DNA of 36,643 nt from Persephonella sp. Its GTDB lineage: Bacteria > Aquificota > Aquificia > Aquificales > Hydrogenothermaceae. The stretch covers positions 1 through 36,643 of the forward strand of contig JALSNI010000047.1 of NCBI GenBank assembly GCA_026987075.1. The letters are read 5' to 3'. Made by a program: the position numbers and the translations under genes. Shown one piece after another: positions 4,215 to 10,398 of the stretch (positions within the stretch are counted from its first letter, which is position 1; each line of letters begins with the position of its first letter). Below the pieces are notes generated by a model. The model was not told the DNA's origin, searched no databases, and was given only the letters and a program-made list of their open reading frames with translations.

Positions 4215-4976
4215 ATGGGAGAAAACACGGCCGTCAAGTGGATTCTGTTCTTCTTCTTCCCGGCCCTGTTCATTTACGGCCTGTTGCACGTTTACTCTTC
4301 AAAACCTGCACAGGCAAAAAGAACAAAAGACCTTACGGCGCAGGAAGAAGCAGGAAGGAAAGTTTACAACAAGTTCTGTGTTGGTTGTCACGGAGTTAAT
4401 GGAGACGGACAATCGGAAGCTGCAAAATTCTTCAAAGACAAGCCACCAAACTTTCACACAGCTGTTTTCAGATGGAAGTCTACTCCTGAAGGGACACTTC
4501 CAACAGATGAAGACTTGATGCACATTTTAAACTGGGGGATTCCTCAAACCCCAATGCCATCCTTCAAACTTGTTCCAGAAGTTCAAAAGAGAGCAGTCAT
4601 TGCTTACATCAAAACATTCTCAGACAGATGGGAAAAGGAAAAACCAGGAGAATCTGTATATAGACACATCAAAAAACCTGAATGGTTTGGCTCTCCTGAA
4701 TCAGTTGAAAAAGGTAAGCAGATTTACGCCCAAAACTGCACAGCATGTCACGGTGAGCAGGGAAGAGGAGATGGTCCACTTGCATCAACACTTCCTGTTC
4801 CACCAACAGACCTGACATATCCTGTTAGAGCTGCAGGTCCAAATCCAGAGGATACTTTCAGAGTTCTTACTGTTGGTCTTGAAGGTTCTCCAATGCCTAA
4901 GTTTGATTTTCTGTCTGAAGAAGATAGATGGCATCTCGTTTCTTACATTGCTTACCTCATGAACAAAGGTAAATAA
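4215..4976 (+). CDS. Membrane-anchored diheme cytochrome c
   Basis: N-terminal TM helix, two CxxCH motifs (CVGCH, CTACH); directly upstream of ccoN. Confidence 0.9.
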   Translation: MGENTAVKWILFFFFPALFIYGLLHVYSSKPAQAKRTKDLTAQEEAGRKVYNKFCVGCHGVNGDGQSEAAKFFKDKPPNFHTAVFRWKSTPEGTLPTDEDLMHILNWGIPQTPMPSFKLVPEVQKRAVIAYIKTFSDRWEKEKPGESVYRHIKKPEWFGSPESVEKGKQIYAQNCTACHGEQGRGDGPLASTLPVPPTDLTYPVRAAGPNPEDTFRVLTVGLEGSPMPKFDFLSEEDRWHLVSYIAYLMNKGK

Positions 4977-4990
4977 TAAGGAGGGTAAAA

Positions 4991-6382
4991 ATGGCAGCTA
5001 ACAATCAAGAACTGCAAAACCTTGTCAACTATGGGCTTGTTAAAGCTCATGTTGCAATGGGTCTGATATTTTTCATAATCGTTGCATTAATGGGATTTTT
5101 ATACTCTCTTCAGCTTGACGGTATATACCCATTTCCTGGCATAGAGTTTTTATCTCCTGGTAGAGTAAGAATGATTCATACAGCAGGTGCTGCATATGGA
5201 TTCCTTGTAAACATGTTTACTGGTCTTCTTTACTGGGCTGTTCCAAGATTTACAGGTTATAAGGTTCTAAGTGATGCTCTTGGATGGTTTATGTTTATTG
5301 CACTGCAAGCAGCAGTTTTAATAACGGTTGTTGCTATTCTTTTCCTTGGAATGGCAGATAACGTTGAGTGGGGTGAAACTCCATGGTGGCTTGACCCTAT
5401 AATTGTATTCTGGCTTCTGCTTCATCTATTGCAGTTTGGTGCTCCACTCTTTAAAGCCTCTCAGAGAGGGCCCCTCTACGTTACAGGCTGGTATATTTCT
5501 GCTATGCTCGTATGGACACCACTCGTTGTTTTTATGGGTAACCTGATTCCAAGATTCTGGGCTGTTGGTTCTGGTGCAGGTGCAGTTCAATCAACATTTA
5601 TTCACGACCTTGTTGGTCTTTATGTTACTCCTGTTGCGTGGGGTCTGATGTATTACTTTGTTCCTGTTATTATGAAAAAACCTATGTGGTCTCACGGTTT
5701 ATCACTTCTTGGTTTCTGGGGACTGGCATTCTTCTATCCAATGAACGGTGTTCACCACTTCCTGTGGTCTCCAATACCAATGTTTGCTCAATATTCAGCT
5801 GTTTTTGCAACAGTTGCTGTTGAGTTTGCAGTAACCTCTGTTCTTATTAACTTTATGATGACACTGAGAGGTTCTGCAGAACAGCTTAAATACAATGTTC
5901 CATTGAGATATATGTATACAGGTGCTATCTTTTACTGGATTACATGCTTCCAGTGTGCATTCCACGTAACACTTACATTCCAGAAGGTAATCCACTTTAC
6001 TGACTGGGTAACTGGACACGCTCACCTGATAATGTTTGGAACGTTTGGACTGTGGGTTCTTGGTATGGCTGAATATGTATGGCCAAGACTGTTTGGAAAA
6101 GAAACAATGTATTCAAAAGGTCTTTCAGAAGGTGCTTACTGGCTCCTTATGATTGGTGTTCTTGCGATGTTCTTTGACCTTACAGCAGCAGGTCTGGTTC
6201 AGGGATTTGACTGGATAGGTCTTAACCCATGGATAGATTCTGTAAACTTCTCTAAACCATTCTGGTATTTCAGGTCTATAGCTGGAATCATGATGATAAC
6301 AGGACTGTTCATGTATGCACTGAACTTCTATAAAACTGCAACTGCTAAAGCTGGACTTACAGCAGAGCTCAGAGAAGTGTAA
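4991..6382 (+). CDS. ccoN: cbb3-type cytochrome c oxidase subunit I
   Basis: 463 aa multi-TM haem-copper oxidase; RMIHTAGAAYGFLVN, GVHHFLWSPIP, WVTGHAHLIMFG; SD GGAGG. Confidence 0.95.
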   Translation: MAANNQELQNLVNYGLVKAHVAMGLIFFIIVALMGFLYSLQLDGIYPFPGIEFLSPGRVRMIHTAGAAYGFLVNMFTGLLYWAVPRFTGYKVLSDALGWFMFIALQAAVLITVVAILFLGMADNVEWGETPWWLDPIIVFWLLLHLLQFGAPLFKASQRGPLYVTGWYISAMLVWTPLVVFMGNLIPRFWAVGSGAGAVQSTFIHDLVGLYVTPVAWGLMYYFVPVIMKKPMWSHGLSLLGFWGLAFFYPMNGVHHFLWSPIPMFAQYSAVFATVAVEFAVTSVLINFMMTLRGSAEQLKYNVPLRYMYTGAIFYWITCFQCAFHVTLTFQKVIHFTDWVTGHAHLIMFGTFGLWVLGMAEYVWPRLFGKETMYSKGLSEGAYWLLMIGVLAMFFDLTAAGLVQGFDWIGLNPWIDSVNFSKPFWYFRSIAGIMMITGLFMYALNFYKTATAKAGLTAELREV

Positions 6383-6396
6383 GGAGGTAGGGAATT

Positions 6397-7128
6397 ATGG
6401 GTAAGATGGAACGTTTTTCATTTGTTGCGTTAGTTGCAGGAATAATTTTCTTCCTGTTTGCTGACTTTATATCTTGGGCTCTGCCGATGTTTGTTCTAAA
6501 GGATATAAAGAAAAAGTCAGTTGAAGACCTGGCAGCTGAAGCTATAGCTAAAAACACAACTGCATGGTCAGATTTTAATAAATTAGCAAGATATTATCCT
6601 GAATCTTTCAAAAAGCTTTGCGAATATACAGAAGCCTATAGTGGAGCATCTGAAGTTATTAAAGACTGTAAACCAAATGAGAAAACATTTGCAAAAGCTC
6701 TCAGAATAGGGCATAGATGGTATATAGCTGAAGGTTGCTGGAACTGCCACTCTCAGATGGTCAGACCAGTTTCTAATGAAACACTTAGATTTGGAATTCC
6801 AGGGGTTTCTAATACTGTATCTTATCCTTCTGAATTCCAGAACGAGCTCCAGGCTCCTGTTCTCTGGGGAACAAAGAGAGTTGGACCTGACCTTATAAGG
6901 GAAGCTGCTGTTCATAACATTGGATGGCAGGTGGCACACCTCTATAACCCTCAATCTACATCTCCAGGCTCTAATATGCCCGGATATCCATGGTTTTTTG
7001 AGAAAGATAAAAATGGAAATATTGTTCCTAACGAAAGAGGTCTTGCTCTTCTTACTTACGTGATGTGGCTTGGTAGCTGGGAAGTAAAACCACCTAAGCC
7101 ATTTAGAGTAGAAACTGCAGAAAAATAG
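6397..7128 (+). CDS. ccoO: cbb3-type cytochrome c oxidase subunit II
   Basis: 243 aa, single TM, EGCWNCHSQMVRPV haem motif, GTKRVGPDLIRE. Confidence 0.95.
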   Translation: MGKMERFSFVALVAGIIFFLFADFISWALPMFVLKDIKKKSVEDLAAEAIAKNTTAWSDFNKLARYYPESFKKLCEYTEAYSGASEVIKDCKPNEKTFAKALRIGHRWYIAEGCWNCHSQMVRPVSNETLRFGIPGVSNTVSYPSEFQNELQAPVLWGTKRVGPDLIREAAVHNIGWQVAHLYNPQSTSPGSNMPGYPWFFEKDKNGNIVPNERGLALLTYVMWLGSWEVKPPKPFRVETAEK

Positions 7129-7163
7129 GGGCTGTAGTGCCCCCTTTCTCCTAAAAAGGAGAA
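7128..7163 (+). other. Two consecutive hairpins in the ccoO-downstream intergenic region
   Basis: GGGGC-tgtagt-GCCCC (7128-7143) and TTCTCC-taaaaa-GGAGAA (7146-7163). Confidence 0.6.
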
Positions 7164-7177
7164 TATGGAGGTAAAAG

Positions 7178-7474
7178 ATGAGAATATCTCAAAAAACAGT
7201 AGCTTTACTTATACTGTTCATATTCCTGTTTGTTGTTGGAACAATTATCGCAGTCAGAACAGTTGCATATCTTGAAGCTGGTATGTCCGGTTCTGAGATG
7301 AAAGGCTTCCTTGTGGAAGTAATAGCCTATGTTGTAGCTCTTACTGGATGGTTTTTACTATTTGTCTATTCTTATATGAAGGGGGATTTTAAGGATATAG
7401 AAGGTCCCAAATATGAGATTTTAGAGATGGAAGAAAAAATTGTAAAAGCAGAAAAAGAAGGAGGTAAATACTGA
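7178..7474 (+). CDS. Small two-TM membrane protein of cbb3 operon
   Basis: 98 aa with two hydrophobic segments; SD GGAGGT; position in oxidase operon. Confidence 0.75.
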   Translation: MRISQKTVALLILFIFLFVVGTIIAVRTVAYLEAGMSGSEMKGFLVEVIAYVVALTGWFLLFVYSYMKGDFKDIEGPKYEILEMEEKIVKAEKEGGKY

Positions 7475-7698
7475 TGGCTTCACATCTTGAAAATACAAAG
7501 GCTGTAGATAAAATAACATACGTTACAGATGCAGTTCCAACATGGTGGATGCTGTTCTGGATTGGTTATATTCTGTTTGCTGTTGCTTACATTGTTTTTG
7601 ACTGGATTCCAGATTTCTTAGGCTGGCTTGATGTTTTAGGAAAGGGCCCAGAAGCAGCAGATAAGTATATCTGGCTTAGAGAGTTAATGAGACATTAA
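7474..7698 (+). CDS. Small FixP_N/CcoP N-terminal-like membrane subunit
   Basis: 74 aa; PTWWMLFWIGYILFAVAYIVF resembles the CcoP N-terminal TM domain; no haem motif. Confidence 0.65.
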   Translation: MASHLENTKAVDKITYVTDAVPTWWMLFWIGYILFAVAYIVFDWIPDFLGWLDVLGKGPEAADKYIWLRELMRH

Positions 7699-7734
7699 TA
7701 AAACAGTAAATTGAACTCAATAATACTTTATTGA

Positions 7735-7761
7735 AGAAGGGGCGTTAAGCCCCTTTTTTTT
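7735..7761 (+). terminator. Rho-independent terminator of the cbb3 operon
   Basis: GGGGC-gttaa-GCCCC followed by T8. Confidence 0.9.
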
Positions 7762-7845
7762 GCTTCATGATAGTTTTCGGTTTTATTATGTGAAATTATT
7801 TATACCGTAAATACCCGTATTTAAATTAGAAATTTAATAAAAAGA

Positions 7846-7874
7846 TTGACATTTTATTAATTGTATTTTATCTT
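7846..7874 (+). promoter_or_regulatory. Sigma70-type promoter upstream of candidate sRNA
   Basis: TTGACA (7846-7851), 17-bp spacer, TATCTT (7869-7874). Confidence 0.6.
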
Positions 7875-7880
7875 ATTAAT

Positions 7881-7935
7881 ACCTCCCCCCTCCCTCCCCC
7901 CAATTTCTGAGGCTCCGCAATGGAGCCTCCTTTTT
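7881..7935 (+). ncRNA. Candidate C-rich small RNA (about 55 nt) with anti-SD-like 5' end
   Basis: Predicted TSS about 7 nt after the -10; ACCTCCCCCCTCCCTCCCCCC then a terminator hairpin; no ORF. Confidence 0.5.
7909..7935 (+). terminator. Rho-independent terminator
   Basis: GAGGCTCC-gcaat-GGAGCCTC followed by CTTTTT. Confidence 0.88.
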
Positions 7936-8631
7936 AAGACTTGTTTTTTGTGATATCATAAAATGTAGAAAAAAAAGAGGTTATTTCTGTGTTTCCTATA
8001 AAAGACAACATTCCAACAAGAACATTTCCTATTCTTACGGTGCTATTAATCGTAATAAACTGTATTGTGTTTCTCTATGAGTTATCTCTGCCTCCACAAT
8101 TTTTGAAACTCTTTATCCATCAGTATGGGTTGTTGCCTGTTGATATCCTTCAGTTCAGAATAGACAAAGTTATAACTTCAATGTTTATTCACGGTGGGTT
8201 TGCTCACCTTTTTGGTAACATGCTGTTCTTGTGGATATTTGGTAATAATGTTGAAGACGCTTTAGGAAAATTTAGGTTCATTATTTTCTATCTTATTTCT
8301 GGGTTTGGAGCTGCATTGACCCAGTCCGTAGTAAGTCTTACAGCTGGAAATCCTTTTATCCCTATGGTTGGAGCTTCAGGAGCTATAAGTGGAATATTAG
8401 CTGCATACATAAAACTTTATCCCCATGCAAAGGTCTTAACTTTTATACCTCCATTTTTCTTTATGTTGTTTGTTTTGCCTGCCTGGTTTTTTATAGGATA
8501 CTGGTTTTTCCTTCAGGTTCTCTTTGCTATTGTGGTTCCGCCAGGCATAGGAGGTGTAGCGTGGTATGCCCACATAGGAGGGTTTGTAACTGGTTGGTTT
8601 TTGATAGATATTCTGTATAGACCTTCAAAAA

Positions 8632-10398
<1,767 letters not shown>

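Follow-up and report, generated by a model that had tools for sequence, protein, structure and literature searches.

A predicted compact small RNA with a C-rich anti-Shine-Dalgarno 5′ arm, encoded beside the cbb3 oxidase operon of Persephonella

The C-rich small RNAs (sRNAs) FsrA of Bacillus subtilis and IsrR of Staphylococcus aureus are controlled by Fur and use C-rich single-stranded regions to pair with Shine-Dalgarno (SD) sequences, which lowers the translation of redox and iron enzymes (PMC9410917). RoxS and RsaE, from B. subtilis and S. aureus, likewise place C-rich regions on ribosome-binding sites and are linked to respiration through ResDE/SrrAB (PMC4409812), and the Rhizobiales sRNAs SmelA075 and SmelA099 carry an explicit C-rich anti-SD motif, CCUCCUCCC (PMC3927594). 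Within the phylum of the bacterium considered here, a survey of Aquificales noncoding RNAs (A. aeolicus candidates, Lechner 2014) combined dRNA-seq with comparison to arrive at about 100 candidates (PMC4227106); its main text makes no mention of an RNA that is C-rich, contains CCUCC or is linked to rhomboid. Searching the literature for Persephonella together with sRNA led to that survey alone. In the literature so covered we found no described C-rich anti-SD sRNA from Aquificota, the examples compared being from Firmicutes and alphaproteobacteria.

The locus described here lies in a window of 36,643 nucleotides (nt) of Persephonella sp. DNA, the whole stretch that was analysed (contig JALSNI010000047.1). 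By analogy, the predicted RNA may work like FsrA, IsrR and RoxS. FsrA and IsrR, however, are larger and contain several stem-loops together with their C-rich regions, and unlike these Fur-controlled RNAs, units of the kind found in the window (type A) show no Fur-like site and no consistent FNR or Fur box across 16 promoter sequences. RoxS and RsaE, from a different phylum, hold several C-rich regions within a larger folded RNA, and the motif of SmelA075 and SmelA099 sits in hairpin loops and is repeated three or four times, whereas here there is a single free 5′ arm. Nor does the unit match any of the described families: an Rfam search returned nothing at the gathering score and nothing convincing at E values up to 10. 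Because its action would resemble that of FsrA, IsrR and RoxS, yet no family model matches it and its build is simpler, we regard it as a probable new family of a known kind. The features of the locus, and the type B paralog discussed further below, are the following.

4215..7699, + strand: adjacent cbb3-type oxidase operon, with AAGGAGGT-like SD sites and mostly weak predicted sRNA pairing
4215-4976, + strand: c-type cytochrome of the cbb3 operon
4991-6382, + strand: CcoN of the cbb3 operon
6397-7128, + strand: CcoO/FixO of the cbb3 operon
7178-7474 and 7474-7699, + strand: two small ORFs of the cbb3 operon
about 7735..7761, + strand: terminator of the cbb3 operon, upstream of the unit
7830..7845, + strand: AT-rich element AAATTTAATAAAAAGA, conserved in the genus (73% mean identity vs 43% further upstream), a candidate UP element or operator
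7846..7874, + strand: sigma-70-type promoter, TTGACA-N17-TATCTT
7881..7901, + strand: predicted start of the sRNA and its unpaired C-rich arm ACCUCCCCCCUCCCUCCCCCC, proposed to act as the anti-SD seed
7902..7908, + strand: short A/T-rich linker (83% mean identity)
7909..7935, + strand: intrinsic terminator hairpin and U tail, the predicted sRNA 3′ end
7949..7959, + strand: TGTGATATCAT, conserved in relatives, which probably serves rhomboid as an extended -10
7989..8663, + strand: rhomboid protease gene (PF01694, 118.7 bits), outside the sRNA and its usual downstream neighbor in the genus
G000:C46:19261-19317 (L076:801-857), window genome: type B unit

An earlier note had read this intergenic stretch as a compact sRNA with a C-rich anti-SD 5′ end, and every element that it named is present base for base: the -35 (TTGACA, 7846-7851), the 17-nt spacer, the -10 (TATCTT, 7869-7874), an A at 7881 that opens the tract ACCTCCCCCCTCCCTCCCCCC (7881-7901), and the terminator GAGGCTCC-GCAAT-GGAGCCTC at 7909-7929, followed by CTTTTT at 7930-7935. 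The placement of the cbb3 operon terminator at 7735-7761 was likewise confirmed. No ORF is found between 7846 and 7935. The predicted RNA folds into the terminator hairpin alone (-15.6 kcal/mol, z = -4.6) and leaves the 5′ tract single-stranded, so that a transcript of ∼55 nt would consist of a 20-nt unstructured C-rich 5′ arm and the hairpin with its U tail. The tract had been called striking, and it occurs once in the whole genome and is the sole mostly-C pyrimidine tract of at least 18 nt within the window (C in 17/20).

Of the 14 genus genomes, 12, the window's own included, give strong matches to the intergenic stretch, as do other genera, an extent of conservation that places the element beyond chance; the two genus genomes without a match are only 74-78% complete. 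The named carriers are Persephonella and Hydrogenothermaceae genome bins. What relatives share is a block composed of the AT-rich upstream element, the -35, the -10 (mainly as TTGACA-N17-TATATT), ACCTCCCCCCTCCCTCCCCC, a short A/T linker and the terminator. Mean identity in the genus is 95% over the tract and 97% over the terminator, compared with 73% for the promoter and 43-47% in the flanks. A covariance model of the unit matches 31 of 41 family genomes, a few of these matches being paralogs or partial. In an alignment of 25 sequences, 99% of the stem cells are paired, and seven of the nine stem pairs show two-sided changes, compensated over 23 distinct sequences. Run over ∼410 kb of stretches that include the window and stand in for the whole genome as background, the model gives 85 bits at the 7881 locus, 37 bits at the paralog, and at most 22 bits elsewhere. 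Since it can reach 22 bits by this route, the weak matches of about 21-37 bits outside the family, in families f2 and f5, call for caution.

These observations, including the covariance and synteny search that the earlier note had suggested, point to a lineage-wide sRNA family rather than a one-off. With its own promoter, its own intrinsic terminator, no ORF and conservation as a unit, 7881-7935 is in our judgment almost certainly a stand-alone sRNA gene, predicted from its sequence to be transcribed; block conservation, stem covariation, the occurrence in other gene contexts and the presence of unlinked paralogs all support the compact C-rich sRNA first proposed. Two further observations concern other lineages. 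In genera g2 and g6 (L044, L045, L015, L016), repeated GTTATGAAC / GTTATTAAC boxes, possibly an operator, lie upstream of the promoter. In family f2 (L088, L090, L093, L094, L095), a C-rich tract is joined to a hairpin with an interrupted T run; these units may not be homologous sRNAs, because in some of them the tract appears to be spanned by a short reading frame.

The C-rich arm is complementary to GGGGGAGGGAGGGGGGAGGT, and owing to its run of C its best complements are SD sites of the GGGGAGGG type. Pairing had been proposed with the GGAGGU sites that are common in the window; the anti-SD principle stands, although it does not extend to every GGAGGU, as the C run prefers GGGGAGGG-type sites and gives weaker pairing with most of the AAGGAGGT-like sites in the cbb3 operon. 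GGGGRGG is found shortly before ATG 30 times in the genome vs 13 times for the reversed pattern. In a genus-wide search for GGGGAGGG-N-ATG, the gene that recurred was coxB, which encodes a CoxB-type cytochrome c oxidase subunit II; some matches were dropped, as they fall inside genes or represent the type B tract read antisense. All 12 coxB orthologs (11 from the genus, 1 from genus g3) keep GGGGAGG or GGGAGGG by the ATG while their spacers have diverged, though the 12 sites are not independent, because orthologous SD sites share descent. In most genomes a G-rich site also precedes the following gene, coxA; in G015 this site is GAGGGAGGGGG, which pairs with the sRNA at -31 kcal/mol. As computed, this conserved complementarity at ribosome-binding sites, together with the unpaired C-rich seed, is what characterizes C-rich SD-blocking sRNAs.

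Mean predicted sRNA pairing is -19.9 kcal/mol for coxB and -19.4 kcal/mol for coxA, compared with -10.0 kcal/mol for 366 sampled starts and -12.9 kcal/mol for strong-SD starts, the background being drawn from contigs already known from pattern hits with start codons picked by SD strength. The cbb3 cistrons pair similarly with 16S rRNA and more weakly with the sRNA, mostly at -10 to -16 kcal/mol; in the window genome ccoO departs from this pattern, with about -20 to -22 kcal/mol. For these pairing controls the standard anti-SD was assumed, because a strict search of the window genome bin found no 16S tail. A multiheme cytochrome also came up repeatedly as a candidate; a start was found for six of its orthologs, and five of these keep GGGGAGG or GGGAGGG. 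Well-paired starts are enriched in CXXCH proteins at borderline significance only (p = 0.04), and this is not used as evidence.

From gene anatomy, conservation, covariation, distribution and the complementarity to the cox sites, the explanation that we favor, and to which we give roughly an even chance, is a trans-acting sRNA that masks the SD of coxBA and of certain further mRNAs but leaves cbb3 mostly unaffected. Sigma-70 RNA polymerase would produce the ∼55-nt RNA from 7881-7935, and its C-rich arm would pair with G-rich GGGGAGGG-type SD regions, probably helped by Hfq; hfq genes are present in 14/14 genus genomes, with two in most. Such pairing should block ribosome binding, and hence the direction of control would be repression. 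Among the candidate targets, support is best for the coxBA mRNA of the second, CoxA/CoxB-type terminal oxidase, and the adjacent cbb3 operon would be largely spared because its SD sites are AAGGAGGT-like. The net physiological effect would be to favor cbb3 over Cox and to trim some other mRNAs.

A reading that we take seriously, as a tentative contender, is a real but broad sRNA that damps many mRNAs with G-rich SD sites in a dose-dependent manner, or that has main targets other than cox. GGAGG is present in 32% of sampled starts (118/366), other starts of the window genome pair as strongly as cox, and the multiheme cytochrome provides an additional recurrent candidate. Moreover, the sRNA is present in genome G001, in which coxB was not detected, and in genera without this coxB, and cox is therefore not its sole target. 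On the other hand, the common AAGGAGGT sites show just moderate pairing, and the cox sites stand out as conserved outliers over 12 genomes despite their diverging spacers.

It is improbable, by comparison, that the RNA mainly partners other RNAs, as a sponge or as the sponged species, with the paralog or G-rich 3′ regions rather than cox mRNA on the other side. The sequence GGAGGGAGGGGGAT is found in non-coding DNA right after genes in G000, G009, G001 and G006 (L226, L230, L227, L229) and could supply 3′ sponge sites, but in G001 and G006 it is joined to a terminator-like stem, and the cox sites are located exactly at ribosome-binding sites.

The gene context bears on whether the unit could instead serve rhomboid as a leader or attenuator, which we consider quite improbable. 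In the genus, and likewise in genera g3 and g5, the unit mostly lies directly after the cbb3 operon and precedes rhomboid, a downstream neighbor that favors a leader. Elsewhere the neighbors differ (gene names here are readings of translations): in genus g6 the unit lies between apparently convergent glnA and gltX, in g2 it lies ∼0.7 kb past the last small cbb3 ORF with one ORF intervening and a protease-like gene following, and in g8 it comes after a ccoG-like gene. There is thus no fixed linkage to a downstream gene, and one paralog is located near recA/topA. The terminator shows no visible alternative fold, and the conserved promoter-like element of rhomboid lies downstream of it. The earlier note had argued from such an element that rhomboid seems to have its own -10; this conclusion holds, but the position does not, since the conserved element is TATCAT at 7954-7959, within TGTGATATCAT, and not TAAAAT at 7959-7964. 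Its occurrence in other contexts leads us to reject the reading of the unit as simply the leader of rhomboid, and the varied neighbors together with the separate -10-like element fit a stand-alone gene, as had been proposed. That the element acts as DNA, through a quadruplex or similar structure on the G-rich minus strand, is hardly credible: this strand does read as 20 nt of G and A, but it has no canonical four-tract quadruplex motif, the tract always lies between promoter and terminator in the same orientation, and the stem covaries.

A second, unlinked C-rich unit (type B), AGCATCCCCCTCCCTCCCC(C)TCCATTTCCTGCGGG..., lies between topA and gatC/recA in most genus genomes, and it pairs with the cox sites equally well. 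Upstream of it, a nearly invariant ATGATAAAAATCATT is present in nine genomes, centered ∼51 nt before AGCATC, and would be centered near -41.5 if the type B start is ∼10 nt upstream of AGCATC. Its spacing, TGAT-N4-ATCA, resembles an FNR/CRP site, and the window genome has three CRP-type genes; since the FNR/CRP match, taken by itself in one sequence, falls short of significance, the identity of the regulator is a guess. An alternative reading of the palindrome as a Fur box was set aside, as the spacing fits FNR/CRP better; the Fur-box match likewise lacks significance in any one sequence. Separately, a yifB/comM-like gene (G000:C9:2614-2628; L221, L205) carries GGAGGGAGGGGGATGCT across its SD and initiation codon, which complements type B perfectly over 17 nt; among the genus genomes searched, this exact site occurs outside the sRNA gene in the window genome only.

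C-rich units of family f5 (L087, L089, L091) have TGATAACTATTATTA just upstream of or in the promoter, twice in L087. It agrees with the Fur box at 12 of 14 positions (shuffle p ≤ 0.006), and these units may accordingly be Fur-controlled. A possible third unit in the window genome, at L192:6924-6974 (G000:C26), combines a TTGACT promoter-like element, CACCACCACTCTCCCCCTTTCC and a strong terminator. One could speculate, with considerable doubt, that Hydrogenothermaceae and perhaps other Aquificota possess a small network of very short C-rich sRNAs with like 5′ arms. Its members would be type A at the cbb3 operon, type B with its FNR-like site, the form from a related family that carries a Fur box, and possibly a third; by masking GGGGAGGG-type SDs, they would let oxygen and iron signals bear on which terminal oxidase and cytochromes are made.

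The design of the type A RNA, a bare seed and a terminator, is close to the smallest possible. It is conserved across genera of thermophiles from hot vents, and C-G pairing should help at high temperature. If the favored explanation is true, it would amount to a post-transcriptional choice between two terminal oxidases in a microaerophile, which is a concrete and testable prediction.
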